IMG/VR virus record: IMGVR_UViG_3300008221_000004
Location: 1-43,009 of that record
From: a virus
Direction: 5' to 3' (one strand)
DNA: 43,009 bases
The number at the start of each line of letters is the position of its first letter. Within the stretch, counting starts at the first letter, position 1. The notes under the pieces are model-generated. The model ran no database searches. It had not been told where the DNA came from and was given only the letters and a program-made list of their open reading frames with translations. The translations under genes and the position numbers were made by a program. This document shows positions 24,388-31,300 of this stretch, piece by piece.

Positions 24388-26543
24388 CCCGGTTCACCCC
24401 CGACATGGACGCCGGATGTGCCGGAGCCGTTCATCTTCGCCTTGTTGGCCTGAATGCCCAGACGCTCCTTCATGGCCAATTCCTGCTCGAACTGGCTCTG
24501 CTTCATCTGGAGTTCCATGGACAGCTGTTCGGCCTTGAGCGCCATCTCCTGATCGATCTGGTAGCGCTTGAGTTCAAACTCGCGCTCCATTTTCTGAAGC
24601 TCCAGCTGGGCCTTCTGTTCATCGCCGGCCTGCTGCTGTTGCAGTTTCACCTGCTCCATTTGCGCGCTCTGCTGCATCTCGGCCTGCTTGACCTGCTGGT
24701 CGACCTGGAGCTTCTGTTGCTCCATCTTCATCTTGGCTTCGGCTTCCTGCGCCTTCGGATCAGGCTTTGGCTGGCTCATCTGCTGCAAAGCCTGCTGGCC
24801 TTCAGGGGTTTGCGCCAACGCAGCCGGGTCTTTAAAGAACGGGTCAACCGTGCGCTTGCCGATGATGCGCCCGATTTCCTCAACTGAATTGTGCAGCTCT
24901 GTAATCCCCACAATCGGATTCGACATGCCGTAATTTGCGACCATTTCACGCTGAAGGCCGAGAATCATCATCTGCTGGTTCAGCATGGTTTCGCGGTCGC
25001 CCGTGCCCATGCCGACATGAACACGCACCTTGGCCTCTGCTGGCCATTGTGACGGGTTGAACGTCTGGAAATTGCCCTTGCCCACATGGATCGAGTCCGG
25101 GCCTTGCGCATTCTTCACCACGAGCCGGTATATCTTGCGGAACATCATTTCGATGCCACGACCAAGATTGCGCGCGATCTGCTCCTTGCGGATGGATGCC
25201 GCGTTCTGCATCAGCTTGATGCCTGTGGCCGTCTTGTTCAGGCTGTCAGGGTCCATGCCCTGCGCATTGCGGGTCACCCCTGTGCGGGCCTCGCCCATCT
25301 GGTCCACGACTTCCATCATCTGCAAGGCAGAGCCGGACATGTCAGGCGTTACAAACGGCATGACGTCCTGACCAACAGGATTAGTGCTGTTCGTGCGGAT
25401 CACGGCGCCCGGCCGTACCGTCAGCAGGTCGCTCAGATTGACCTTGCTGTTCGCAATCGTGCGAGGCGCAACTGAGAGATAGACGCTATCGAGCGCGCCC
25501 CTCAGAAGCGCTGTCTTGATCTTCTGGATGTCTTTCGCAATGTCATAGATGGACATGCCGAACCAGCGGTGCGGGATCGGGATCGGCGTCCAGCTGAAAT
25601 ACGGGTTATCATCCACTTCCTCGACCGTGAGGATACAGCCATCCAGGCGGAACACTTCGAGCAGTTCAGCATACCCGTCGCCGTCCTTGTCGAAATAGAT
25701 ATACTCACGCCACAAGCGGACTTCCATTGCCTCATCGGAGGCCGTAGTTTCCTCCTTGTACATTTCGTCTTCGTCCCAGAACCGCTGGGCACGCCGCTCG
25801 TCAATATCCGTCAGGTCATCAACGTCTGTCGCATACTCATCGATCTTGTCCGCCAGATCGGGGAACTCTTCCTTGAGTTCAGACTTCGTAGGCCGCTCGA
25901 TATGTCCGCAATAGCGCGGCTTCTCAAGCGAGGTTGACCGGCTGGCAATGCGGAAGTCTTCCGGCGCGATGATCTGCGCATGAGGCCGGGCCTTCCTGGT
26001 CACCAGCTGATAGCTGATATTGGCCGTCATCTCGTCAATGGGTTCAACACCGAGGATTTGCGCTCCCTGTTCCTGCAGGCGTTGCAACTCGACCTGACCG
26101 CCCTGCATTTCCTGCGGATCGCCAAGCTCTGCATCGCGCCAGTAACACGCACCCACACCACGCTTCTGCAACAGGCCGTCAAAGCTGAACGCGTCAACCA
26201 GCTGCTCGCCTTCCATTTCCTCGAAGAACAGGTGATTGAGGTAGTCTGATGCGCCTTCCGCTTCCTCAGCCACGCCGTCTGCCCATGGCTCGACGTTCAC
26301 AGCACGGCCGCCGGACGCAAACACACGCACAAGGTCAGGCCGCAGCCATTCGATCACCTCGAACACAGTGCGATCATGCACACGGGACCGGCCCGCTTGT
26401 TCATCGCCATAGTCTTCGCCCGTATAGCGCTTGAATGCCTCGATCTGGTCTGTGTAGATCTGGTCAGACTCATAGCCGACAGAGGCCGATTCCTCGCGCT
26501 TGAGGATTTCGAGCAGTTCGGTGTCTTCGTACTCTTCAGCCAT
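24384..26543 (-). CDS. Portal protein (P22-like)
   Basis: 719 residues from ATG 26543, which overlaps the terminase stop as TGATG. Portal features: ESDQIYTDQIEAFKRYTGED near the start, EWLRPDLVRVFASG, a central wing/stem part with GWFGMSIYDIAKDIQ-like helices (HRWFGMSIYD), and SGSALQMMEVVDQMGEARTGVTRNAQG, typical for P22-type portals. The last ~120 residues are a glutamine/glutamate-rich coiled coil (about 590-700), matching the helical barrel of P22 gp1. It would form the dodecameric ring through which DNA is packaged. Length is near the 725 residues of P22 portal. Confidence 0.93.
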   Translation of the reverse strand: MAEEYEDTELLEILKREESASVGYESDQIYTDQIEAFKRYTGEDYGDEQAGRSRVHDRTVFEVIEWLRPDLVRVFASGGRAVNVEPWADGVAEEAEGASDYLNHLFFEEMEGEQLVDAFSFDGLLQKRGVGACYWRDAELGDPQEMQGGQVELQRLQEQGAQILGVEPIDEMTANISYQLVTRKARPHAQIIAPEDFRIASRSTSLEKPRYCGHIERPTKSELKEEFPDLADKIDEYATDVDDLTDIDERRAQRFWDEDEMYKEETTASDEAMEVRLWREYIYFDKDGDGYAELLEVFRLDGCILTVEEVDDNPYFSWTPIPIPHRWFGMSIYDIAKDIQKIKTALLRGALDSVYLSVAPRTIANSKVNLSDLLTVRPGAVIRTNSTNPVGQDVMPFVTPDMSGSALQMMEVVDQMGEARTGVTRNAQGMDPDSLNKTATGIKLMQNAASIRKEQIARNLGRGIEMMFRKIYRLVVKNAQGPDSIHVGKGNFQTFNPSQWPAEAKVRVHVGMGTGDRETMLNQQMMILGLQREMVANYGMSNPIVGITELHNSVEEIGRIIGKRTVDPFFKDPAALAQTPEGQQALQQMSQPKPDPKAQEAEAKMKMEQQKLQVDQQVKQAEMQQSAQMEQVKLQQQQAGDEQKAQLELQKMEREFELKRYQIDQEMALKAEQLSMELQMKQSQFEQELAMKERLGIQANKAKMNGSGTSGVHVGGEPG

Positions 26544-27883
26544 CAAGCTATCGTTCCATACTCAGGTATCATGGGGGCATTCGTCTGGGTCATGCTGGCG
26601 AGAATGTCCTCGAAGTCTGTGGCGCCAAGGCCGAACGCATCAGAGCCGTGGCTGGACCAGTCGTGCTCAGGGCCAAGCCCGATCTCGCGATCAGCGTCCC
26701 GGCGCTCGTGGTAATGGGCGATGGCTTCACGCCCGCCCTCTGTGCCTTCTTCATCAAACCAGAAGGCGTTGAAGTTCTTGTGGGCAACGTTGATGCGCTG
26801 CATGGCTGCGCCCTTGCCCTGATTGGGGATAATGCGAACCGTCCACTGAAACTCAGGTGTGGAGGCTGCCTCCCAATAGTCCTTGTATTGGTTGCCGAGA
26901 CCATCAGGCCGTGTGCCATCATGCGGAAGGACATGCTCGACACTGCGCACTCCATTGCGATGCATCCAGTCACGCATCCAGCCCACATGGTAATCCAGCG
27001 ACTGGCCAACCGACTCGTAATAGCCGAGCCAGTTCATCTGGCGATTGATGGCCTGCGTGGGCCACATGGCGTAGGCATCAGCCTTGTCTGACGAACTGAA
27101 AGCCAGGTCATGATACACACGCACTGACATGAGCGGATCAACGGGCAACTTGCAGATACGGCCCTGACGCTTGGCCAGTGTAAGCTTCTCTGCGTAGTAA
27201 GCGCCCTCGATGACCGTGGCGAAGTCGCCCTCCCATATGTGATCGTATTGTTCCGGCCGGGCCAGCCTGTCTCGTTTGCGCTCATCATCAAGGACTTCGG
27301 GGAACCACGGGTTATCCCGCCAGTTCAACTCGATGATCTTCATGTCCTCTGTGGCATTCTCACGAAAGCGCTTGTGTGTGGAGCTGCGCTTGGTCTCCGG
27401 GTTCCACGTCACCCAGATCTCAGAACCATGCTCACGCACTGTAGGGATAAGCTTGACCCATGCTTCATCAGCAACCGGCTCGGCCTCGTCTACCCAGCAA
27501 AGGATGATCGAGGCCTTGGACTTGATGCTGTCGAGATTGTGCCGAAGGCCTGCGAACTTGAAATCAACCCGGCCCGCTATGCCTTCCTTGGTGCGGATGT
27601 ACTTTTCGCCAATGTCCCAGCCATCAGAGAGCCACGGGTCTGAGAGGATTGCTGCCTTCACCTCAGCCATGGAGGATTCGTCAAGGCTGTTCATGAACTC
27701 ACGGCAGCAGAGGATGATACCGGTCTGACCCTTCAGGGCGCATTTGAGGCCAACAACAGCGGCCATCTTGGCAAAGCTTCGGGTCTTGCCGCTTCCCCGC
27801 CCACCGTATGAACCGCGATACCGCGCAGGGCCTGAGAATACATCAACGAGCTTTGGCGGAAGCTCAATCTGATGACGTGCCAT
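26543..27883 (-). CDS. terL: Terminase large subunit (DNA packaging motor)
   Basis: 446 residues from ATG 27883 (the open frame extends only to a TTG four codons upstream). ATPase: Walker A GGRGSGKT (27-34) and Walker B IILCWVDE (126-133), then coupling motif WVTWNP (near 155). Nuclease: acidic residues in VYHDLAF, LPHDGT and GSDAFG of the RNase H-like domain. It packages phage DNA into the prohead through the portal, coupled to the small subunit (20-base overlap at 27864-27883). Likely headful packaging, because no cos site can be recognised, but this is not proven. Confidence 0.96.
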   Translation of the reverse strand: MARHQIELPPKLVDVFSGPARYRGSYGGRGSGKTRSFAKMAAVVGLKCALKGQTGIILCCREFMNSLDESSMAEVKAAILSDPWLSDGWDIGEKYIRTKEGIAGRVDFKFAGLRHNLDSIKSKASIILCWVDEAEPVADEAWVKLIPTVREHGSEIWVTWNPETKRSSTHKRFRENATEDMKIIELNWRDNPWFPEVLDDERKRDRLARPEQYDHIWEGDFATVIEGAYYAEKLTLAKRQGRICKLPVDPLMSVRVYHDLAFSSSDKADAYAMWPTQAINRQMNWLGYYESVGQSLDYHVGWMRDWMHRNGVRSVEHVLPHDGTRPDGLGNQYKDYWEAASTPEFQWTVRIIPNQGKGAAMQRINVAHKNFNAFWFDEEGTEGGREAIAHYHERRDADREIGLGPEHDWSSHGSDAFGLGATDFEDILASMTQTNAPMIPEYGTIA

Positions 27884-28292
27884 CGCCCGCCACAATATCT
27901 ACGCCGCTTACGTCCTTGAGGATGCCGAACTTGTGGTCGACTTCCTGCTTGTCTTTCCAGCCGTGATTGTTCTTCATGTCGAAGATAACGCCCGGTGTGA
28001 AACGGTCTTTGTCCAGCAATTGCTGCCAGCGATCATCCTCAATAATCATGCGGGCCTTTTTTACTGTACGGGCAAAATCTTCGCCCTTGTTCTTGTATGT
28101 GGTGAAGGTGTCACGGTCAGCAAAGCCGAGGTGAAGCGAGATGCCCGCAAGCGTTGGGCGGCGCTGTTCCTGTTCGCATTCGGTGAAATACTCCTCGACC
28201 AGGACAGCAAATTCCTCTGCGTCAGTATAGTCCGCGGGGCGCCCATGGTCGGCGCGAAGCATCCAGTATTTGTTGCCCTTAGGTGCTGGCAT
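27864..28292 (-). CDS. terS: Terminase small subunit
   Basis: 142 residues. HTH-like start (GRPADYTDAEEFAVLVEEYFTECEQE, then LAGISLHLGFADRDTFTTYKNKG) is typical of terminase small subunits that recognise the packaging site. A helical oligomerisation part (EDFARTVKKARMIIEDDRWQQLL) and a C-terminal tail with GWKDKQEVDH follow, as in the P22-gp3/Terminase_2 type. The start ATG overlaps the end of the last micro-gene, and the stop lies in the large-subunit gene, so the two subunits are made together. Confidence 0.9.
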   Translation of the reverse strand: MPAPKGNKYWMLRADHGRPADYTDAEEFAVLVEEYFTECEQEQRRPTLAGISLHLGFADRDTFTTYKNKGEDFARTVKKARMIIEDDRWQQLLDKDRFTPGVIFDMKNNHGWKDKQEVDHKFGILKDVSGVDIVAGDGTSSD

Positions 28293-29555: not shown

Positions 29556-29607
29556 AAAAAAGAGCCTGCGACTAATGGTGGATGCCAAGAGGAGACGCCG
29601 CAGGCTC
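29556..29607 (-). terminator. Rho-independent terminator on the minus strand
   Basis: 9-bp perfect stem GAGCCTGCG / CGCAGGCTC (29562-29570 and 29599-29607) with a 28-base loop. Read on the minus strand it is followed directly by six U residues (AAAAAA at 29556-29561 on the plus strand). It would end transcripts coming from the methyltransferase gene and stop them entering the late genes. Confidence 0.75.
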
Positions 29608-29652: not shown

Positions 29653-29685
29653 AGCCCCGCGCCTCCAAACAGGAAGCACGGGGCT
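29653..29685 (-). terminator. Weaker minus-strand terminator hairpin
   Basis: 7-bp stem AGCCCCG / CGGGGCT with a 19-base loop, followed on the minus strand by only a short U tract (TTTCC). It comes just upstream of the stronger terminator, so the two are tandem. Could also be an RNA structural element. Confidence 0.5.
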
Positions 29686-29987
29686 CGCTTGCAACGGCTG
29701 GATGGTTTGGGGGACTACACTACCGCTGCTTGCTCTGAATTTTGGACGACAGTAGACCACCCTGCTGGCGATCTCAGTATTCACGATGCGCTGCCGAGCC
29801 CACATCGCATAGTTGGGATCAAATGGCGATCAACTCCACATCACCCGACTGACCTCTGAATTTCGGGAAGGCTTCGCACTAAGGGTCTGGTGATCGCGCT
29901 CGCGGTGTTCCAGCCCCACGCACCGGGCGAAGCATCTAGCACGTCCTCGGTGTCTGGTTTCCCTTATCAGGTGATTTGGTGTGTTGG

Positions 29988-30779
29988 TCAAGTCTCGCCA
30001 TCAAACAGGCTTCCCGTCTGAGCGGGCTTCGCTTTCGGTTCATCGAACAGGCGGGGCTGCTTCCATGCTTCACGGACGCGCTTGCAGGCTATGTCGAAGT
30101 AATCAGGGTCAAGCTCTATGCCGATAGAGCGACGGCCAAGCTGGGTGGCAGCGACCAGGGTTGTGCCACTGCCCATGAAGGGGTCGAGGATGGTGTTTGT
30201 GTCTTTCGACAATTGCTGAATGCACCACTTCATCACGCCAATTGGCTTTTGCGTGGGATGGTGCCCGCGCACTTCTCCGGGCGCTTTTATCATCCCACTC
30301 CAAAGGTATTTTATGCGGCGAACGGCCTTTGGCAGGTTGGTCCACGCCAATTCACAGTCCGCGAAGTCGCCCGTGTTCAACTTGTCCCAAACAAGCCAGC
30401 ACGATGTCGGAGGAAGACTGTAGTAATTGCCCCCAAAGATAATGGATTGATTGCAAATTGAGCGCGCAAAATGAATCGCTTCATCTGCGGTCTGATTGTC
30501 CCAATCGGAGCAACCGTAATCAACGGCCTTCGCCAACTTGCTGCGAGACTTGTTTGCCCCTGCCGCTTCTCCAATCCCATAAGGCGGGTCCGTAATCACA
30601 GCATCCACCCGCCCCAGCGCTGGCATGACCTCCAGACAGTCCCCTTGGATCAGTACTGCGTCACCGATATACTCGATCCGCTTGGCACCAGCTGCCATAA
30701 TGGCCTCGTGGCGCTCACGCATCGCGTCAATGGCAACGTCATAGCTTCGGCTTGAATCTGCACGGGCATCATAGGGCAT
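29988..30779 (-). CDS. Orphan DNA (N6-adenine/N4-cytosine) methyltransferase
   Basis: 263 residues. Catalytic motif DPPY (64-67), then a target-recognition stretch, then HPTQKP and the S-adenosylmethionine-binding motif DPFMGSGTT (199-207), ending in GIELDPDYF. The DPPY-before-FxGxG order is that of beta-class enzymes such as CcrM. No restriction endonuclease gene lies nearby, so it may protect phage DNA from host restriction or change gene regulation. ATG 30779 overlaps the NusG-like stop as TAATG. It is the last gene before the terminators. Confidence 0.92.
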   Translation of the reverse strand: MPYDARADSSRSYDVAIDAMRERHEAIMAAGAKRIEYIGDAVLIQGDCLEVMPALGRVDAVITDPPYGIGEAAGANKSRSKLAKAVDYGCSDWDNQTADEAIHFARSICNQSIIFGGNYYSLPPTSCWLVWDKLNTGDFADCELAWTNLPKAVRRIKYLWSGMIKAPGEVRGHHPTQKPIGVMKWCIQQLSKDTNTILDPFMGSGTTLVAATQLGRRSIGIELDPDYFDIACKRVREAWKQPRLFDEPKAKPAQTGSLFDGET

Positions 30780-31300
30780 TATGCAACCCTCCGTAACGCC
30801 AACTGCGCATCCTCTGCCCGCATTATCACCGGACGGCCCAGCAACCGCAAGGCCAGCTTGAGCTGATTGCCGTCAACGGATTCAACCTCGACCTGACCAA
30901 TGCTTTCCACCTCAACATGGTCGCCCGCGGTCCATACGTGCTGGCCTCTGAGGCGCGGAATGTTATAGTGGCGGTGCAAGGGTATCGGCAGATCTCCGGT
31001 GATCCACTTCAGGTCCGCCATGCCATTGAGCGGCTTGATCGCGCCGGCAAAGCTGATCGGGTAGATGCGAGGGCCGGGCATGTGTTCGATAGCCAGGAAG
31101 TTAGGCGAGCGGTCAAAGCCTGCGAAGATGTAGGACTTCAACACGCACTCTGTCACAGTCCGGGCTGGCTTGCGGGGAGGACGCTTGCGAAGCGTGCGAC
31201 ACACAGCGAAGGCGTCACAGTCCATGTAATCGCCAAGACGGTTTGCAGCCGCTTCTGTGCGGTCTGCGCGGCAAGAAAATGCATACCAAAGTTGGGTCAT
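30779..31300 (-). CDS. NusG-like protein (putative late antiterminator)
   Basis: 173 residues. The N-terminal part starts LWYAFSCRADRTEAAANRL and continues to VLKSYIFAGFDR, the outline of the NGN domain of NusG/RfaH (WYA... then PLFPGYLFV-like segment), which binds RNA polymerase. The C-terminal ~60 residues (WTAGDHVEVESIGQVEVESVDGNQLKLALRLLGRPV) fit the KOW domain. NusG paralogues make RNA polymerase ignore pauses or terminators. It is coupled to the gene before (ATGA) and after (TAATG) and comes just before terminators and late genes, as lambda Q does. Function as antiterminator is inference. Confidence 0.8.
   Translation of the reverse strand: MTQLWYAFSCRADRTEAAANRLGDYMDCDAFAVCRTLRKRPPRKPARTVTECVLKSYIFAGFDRSPNFLAIEHMPGPRIYPISFAGAIKPLNGMADLKWITGDLPIPLHRHYNIPRLRGQHVWTAGDHVEVESIGQVEVESVDGNQLKLALRLLGRPVIMRAEDAQLALRRVA

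Follow-up and report, generated by a model that had tools for sequence, protein, structure and literature searches.

Phage late genes are known to be switched on mainly by Q, N, and related small proteins. In lambda, the regulator Q, the promoter PR', a leader that is itself a terminated RNA (6S RNA), and the terminator tR' are followed by the late operon. Other antiterminators are built on the fold of the elongation factor NusG. RfaH, for example, has a NusG-family fold and needs an ops site upstream of its target. LoaP of Bacillus velezensis, a NusG paralogue, carries RNA polymerase through an intrinsic terminator, for which it requires a small hairpin in the leader (PMC12691694). Its targets are host secondary-metabolite operons, and its hairpin is of the UNCG type. 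The put RNA of phage HK022, about 70 nt long with two stem-loops close behind the promoter (PMC9378689), belongs to the early operon, where it acts on early promoters without a dedicated protein. In phages, NusG-like antiterminators located before the terminase have already been annotated in Sinorhizobium phage phiLM21 and in Rhizobium phages, and they fall in two PHROGs (25909 and 6386). All phiLM21-like prophages are reported to carry a homologue of the phiLM21 transcription antiterminator, the function being an annotation (PMC12429752). In the open-access papers searched, no experimental test of phage NusG-like antiterminators was found.

Here, we analyzed a stretch of 43,009 bases (the window; IMG/VR record IMGVR_UViG_3300008221_000004) from a marine bacterial virus, which is a temperate tailed phage. 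One side of the window carries an integrase, an Erf annealing protein, a YqaJ exonuclease, and a repressor pair, and the minus strand carries replication genes and then packaging, head, and ejection genes. A near-identical copy of its NusG-like gene is present in a Pseudooceanicola MAG, which suggests a host among the Rhodobacterales. As in the rhizobial temperate phages (phiLM21 p034, RHph_TM3_3_3, and RHph_N28_2), the NusG-like gene ends the early region, just before the terminase. The order of regulator, promoter, terminated leader, and late operon is also that of lambda, with the regulator placed, like Q, just upstream of the predicted terminated late leader. The virus seems to use a NusG copy of its own to turn on its late (particle-building) genes. 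The features discussed below are as follows.

30779-31300, minus strand: divergent NusG paralogue P0001 (NGN plus KOW-like; profile homology with controls, low-confidence fold model)
29988-30779, minus strand: cargo gene for an N6/N4 DNA methyltransferase, outside the proposed switch; unrelated genes (HNH-like and others) in relatives
29963-29991, minus strand: predicted late promoter (-35 TTGACC, 17-nt spacer, -10 GATAAG), kept in all relatives
29687-29962, minus strand: predicted untranslated leader, 276 nt in the window
29921-29952, minus strand: predicted leader hairpin 1, 9 bp
29882-29917, minus strand: predicted leader hairpin 2, with a 35-nt core GGGGCTGGAACACCGCGAGCGCGATCACCAGACCC identical in all relatives
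29746-29853, minus strand: 108-bp leader insertion flanked by AAATTCAGAG repeats
29687-29733, minus strand: predicted leader hairpin 3, GCAAGCAGCGG ... CCGTTGCAAGC
29654-29684, minus strand: predicted intrinsic terminator t1 (-27.8 kcal/mol, TTT)
29557-29605, minus strand: predicted intrinsic terminator t2 (-17.0 kcal/mol, TCTTTTTT, six T)
26543-28292, minus strand: first packaging genes of the late operon (TerS, 27864-28292; TerL, 26543-27895)

P0001 is a divergent NusG homologue

The P0001 ORF (31300-30779) starts with ATG and encodes 173 amino acids. As a single sequence, P0001 had no match in Pfam, NCBIfam, or the PDB sequences, a direct search of phage records with it returned nothing, and its match to PHROG 6386 ("transcription antiterminator") was weak (E 0.044). 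For the Pfam model PF02357, P0001 did not match at the curated threshold (22.2 bits), and its relatives L103 and L005 touched the model below this cut-off in the right register (17.0 and 16.0 bits; E 0.0085 and 0.018). Relatives likewise matched PHROG 6386 (E 0.0013), and L103 weakly matched UpxY/RfaH models, in each case below the cut-off and in the right register. A curated cut-off is not a biological feature; thus, missing the PF02357 threshold lowers the certainty of NusG/Spt5 membership and does not exclude it.

For a more sensitive comparison, a profile was composed of 30 housekeeping NusG proteins (plus Escherichia coli NusG) and 16 divergent paralogues from Pseudomonadota genomes. The P0001 family aligned with it colinearly across NGN and KOW, over 154 columns (hhalign P 2.5e-6, score 41.9). 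By comparison, the maximum score in 200 column shuffles was 29.9, and among 300 random ORFs only four scored above 22.4, all of them members of the P0001 family. The domain assignment of the preliminary description, an NGN-like plus a KOW-like part, is borne out by this comparison. Against housekeeping NusG alone, the match was weak and lay in the KOW region in the same register (P 0.044), and against viral NusG-like proteins alone it was not significant (P 0.082); the homology is therefore distant. At its KOW-like end, P0001 keeps an LGR loop that resembles the IFGR loop of NusG in sequence. The P0001 gene is real and, on the strength of these alignments, encodes a very divergent NusG homologue.

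A first fold model, built from near-identical sequences, was useless (pLDDT 29). A second model, whose alignment included other phage NusG-like proteins, was weak (mean pLDDT 46, pTM 0.36); its elements stand in NGN order, with a small beta domain after them. The comparison with NusG and RfaH proposed earlier gave the family the first ranks, from a model of low confidence: the top five PDB matches (E >= 0.002) were all NusG, Spt5, or RfaH, namely, the NusG of an RpoB-NusG model, two Spt5 chains, the NusG of a lambda N complex, and RfaH at ops. The best viral matches of the model include phage RfaH/NusG.

Membership in a described antiterminator family was also examined. No Q-like family matched P0001, its PHROG matches being of the NusG type only; the LoaP model matched neither P0001 nor L103; and L103 scored 14.6 bits with the RfaH equivalog model (cut-off, 124). 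Other antiterminators had no match among the window proteins tested.

A conserved predicted promoter and leader lie ahead of the terminators

The gap between the methyltransferase gene and the downstream small ORFs spans 537 bases and contains two hairpin-plus-T terminators. Both had been noticed before, together with the late operon behind them, and both are present, at -27.8 kcal/mol (29684-29654) and -17.0 kcal/mol (29605-29564). No other hairpin-plus-T site on the minus strand of the window is as stable as the first, t1; the stem and T run of t2 are kept in relatives. A simple consensus terminator scanner caught only t1; t2 was missed because of its long loop. After t2, the same strand encodes small ORFs, TerS, TerL, the portal, the scaffold, and the major head protein.

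Absent from the preliminary description were a conserved promoter and a structured leader between the methyltransferase gene and the terminators. The promoter motif TTGAC-N17/18-GATAAG occurs once per locus across relatives, and the TGA stop of the cargo gene lies inside the -35 TTGAC in the window and most relatives. Where the 108-bp insertion is missing, the leader of relatives measures 154-161 nt; the window shares this insertion with contig L173 (about 490-600 there), and most relatives lack it. Three hairpins are predicted in the leader. In L103, the changes in hairpin 1 are confined to bulges and the loop, with none in pairs. The leader pairs vary too little for a covariation test to establish the base pairing. 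The leader region had no match in Rfam, and a suspected tRNA remnant was rejected, since neither ARAGORN nor Rfam found one.

Compared with known systems, the succession of promoter, leader hairpin, and intrinsic terminator is that of LoaP targets, whereas hairpin 2 has the loop GAGC rather than a UNCG tetraloop, and the module precedes phage late genes rather than host secondary-metabolite operons. Unlike the RfaH system, the window has no conserved ops, and ops-like sites are no more frequent than expected at random. A near-match at 29717-29727 (AGCGGTAGTGT) was rejected, as its bases are not kept in relatives and similar matches are as frequent as chance predicts. Unlike the lambda Q layout, it is the transcribed leader that is most conserved, not the promoter spacer, and no sigma-dependent pause was found by eye in the window.

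The leader and the NusG-like protein occur together

Close relatives of P0001 are few, comprising eight IMG/VR contigs at 94-100%, the MAG, and L103 at 78%. The DNA downstream of the NusG-like gene was compared in nine relatives (L002-L009 and L103). All relatives tested had the same order of NusG-like gene, cargo, promoter, leader, t1, t2, and late genes. The gene directly after the NusG-like gene differed almost every time, being of the HNH type in L004 and L007 (judged by eye). The methyltransferase gene at 30779-29988 does follow the NusG-like gene directly, as described earlier; by this comparison of gene content, it is exchangeable cargo outside the proposed switch. In L005 (1760-2010) and L006 (1574-1935), extra genes stand between the leader and t1, each with its own hairpin in front (GAGCCCCCGGCGC...GTCGGGGGATTC), and look like a terminator-flanked accessory gene.

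In the comparison with L103, the leader has changed less than the NusG-like gene: the core of hairpin 2 is identical there, with 55.8% identity at third codon positions of the NusG-like gene and 67.4% in TerL DNA. A degenerate hairpin 2 pattern was then scanned over the virus collection. It matched 14 stretches, of which nine belonged to the IMG/VR contigs known to encode a P0001-type protein and one to a new contig, L173; these ten contigs carry the full element. In L173, the end of the same NusG-like gene lies just upstream of the promoter and leader. The four remaining matches had no promoter or leader around them and were rejected as chance. Thus, the leader and the protein co-occur without exception in the relatives and L173, although part of this pattern may stem from the common ancestry of these close relatives. 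Among 395 Rhodobacteraceae-related genomes searched with the protein, the profile, and the RNA model, only the MAG copy was found, weak extra matches being judged chance, and the covariance model of the leader found no distant copy in these genomes or in 51 other loci. Within the window, the hairpin 2 element has a single copy, so the target would be one operon. Hairpin 2 is a candidate recruitment site for the NusG paralogue, which probably recognizes conserved folded RNA just ahead of the two terminators.

NusG-like genes precede the terminase in other temperate phages

Among phages with a related terminase, clear NusG-like genes before TerL were present in L035, L036, and L041, and two scans starting from these and phiLM21 yielded about 65 more loci. 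Where TerL was also detected, it lay downstream of the NusG-like gene on the same strand, 0.8-4.5 kb away, at 43 of 43 loci (39 distinct contigs), a strong count that is not independent, since each locus covered only about 5 kb on either side and several are related. Terminators were slightly enriched in the gaps of these phages (35 of 119 in 20.5% of the length), and this enrichment, being slight, was not relied on.

The rhizobial NusG-like proteins share 12-23% identity with the P0001 family. The phiLM21 protein has no recognizable KOW end, whereas P0001 has a KOW-like one, and the conserved RNA of phiLM21 comes directly after the gene and has no sequence relation to the window leader. The different conserved hairpin after the NusG-like gene of phiLM21-type phages suggests a recurring design, in which an RNA element accompanies a NusG paralogue at the early/late boundary.

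Other observations were made in these phages. The phiLM21-type hairpin (GTCGGACCTTGC...GCAACGGGAATACTCGAC; L182, 5679-5790, and the same place in L183-L200 and L241) lies directly 3' of the NusG-like gene, shows compensatory stem changes in single sequences, is followed by terminators in several, and is absent from Rfam. The proteins themselves (L182, 5001-5678, and relatives) lack a recognizable KOW end and have a C terminus, LRMLAEAAIDELAPASRQHVLSILNELK, that looks helical and invites comparison with the all-alpha state of RfaH. A short DnaA-like gene stands before the NusG-like gene both in L103 (9204-9566, by eye) and in phiLM21 (p033, annotated), phages that are otherwise very different.

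Proposed late switch and alternative explanations

We consider it likely that P0001 is a late-gene antiterminator, a functional counterpart of lambda Q on a NusG fold. Promoter activity, termination, RNA recognition, and read-through would then proceed as follows. To judge from gene order, the NusG paralogue would be made late in the early transcript. As predicted from the sequence, polymerase would start at the constitutive-looking promoter (29991-29963), make the short structured leader, and, without the paralogue, stop at t1 and t2. LoaP is the closest worked example, and loading at hairpin 2 with read-through of t1 and t2 is proposed on its model: the paralogue would load on polymerase as hairpin 2 and/or its bubble DNA emerges, a site chosen because the element is invariant and co-occurs strictly with the protein. 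The modified polymerase would then pass t1, t2, and the roughly 29-kb late operon. The earlier proposal of a late switch thus stands as far as a NusG-family protein in the Q position, before terminators and late genes, is concerned; relatives keep this position, and it recurs in other temperate phages. That polymerase simply reads on from the early transcript is improbable, since the gene and the terminators are separated by a dedicated predicted promoter and its conserved structured leader.

Other readings of the same locus were weighed. The leader RNA alone might act on polymerase, as put does, with the NusG paralogue doing something else; the position of hairpins 1 and 2, within about 80 nt of the predicted start, recalls the two stems of put (PMC9378689). 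However, put serves early promoters without a dedicated protein, whereas the window element belongs to the late operon and is paired with one; a self-acting leader would make late genes constitutive in a temperate phage, and the strict co-occurrence of leader and protein speaks against this reading, which is unlikely. We regard it as improbable, too, that the paralogue is an anti-Rho or coupling factor for early transcription or the whole phage transcriptome with no specific late target. It is encoded within the early operon, and its LGR loop resembles the IFGR loop of NusG, but there is one conserved element, ahead of the late genes, the placement beside t1 and t2 is conserved, and in other phages the gene always lies upstream of TerL.

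Less probable still is that the conserved noncoding block serves as a cos/pac site for packaging or as an independent 6S-like small RNA, unrelated to the paralogue. Terminases often cut near their own genes, the block lies within 1.7 kb upstream of TerS, and the lambda leader is itself such a terminated RNA; nevertheless, a conserved promoter stands in front of the block and terminators behind it, Rfam has no match, and the leader is intact in L005 and L006 despite the genes inserted between it and the terminators. That P0001 resembles NusG by chance would accord with its lack of matches above curated cut-offs, but is hardly credible against the weak matches of its relatives to PF02357, PHROG 6386, and UpxY/RfaH in the same register, the controlled hhalign result, and the fold search. 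The late-gene antiterminator therefore remains our preferred reading.

The view that such a switch would be unusual was half right, as phage NusG-like antiterminators are, as a kind, already known by annotation in phiLM21 and Rhizobium phages. New here are the divergent clade, its full set of promoter, leader with an invariant hairpin, and terminators, and the consistent position of NusG-like genes upstream of TerL. We lean slightly toward the broader idea that temperate phages have repeatedly made NusG a Q-like antiterminator, each clade pairing its paralogue with its own RNA hairpin at the early/late boundary; the window clade would be an undescribed pair with exchangeable cargo between. The RNA-and-terminator module makes the idea of a NusG late switch testable, and the compact set of protein, hairpin, and terminators is a clean in vitro system for the targeting of a NusG paralogue to one operon. 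If true, the proposal would give a function to many "NusG-like antiterminator" annotations, and a recurring NusG-based switch would mean that a universal elongation factor has been recruited as a phage timer.
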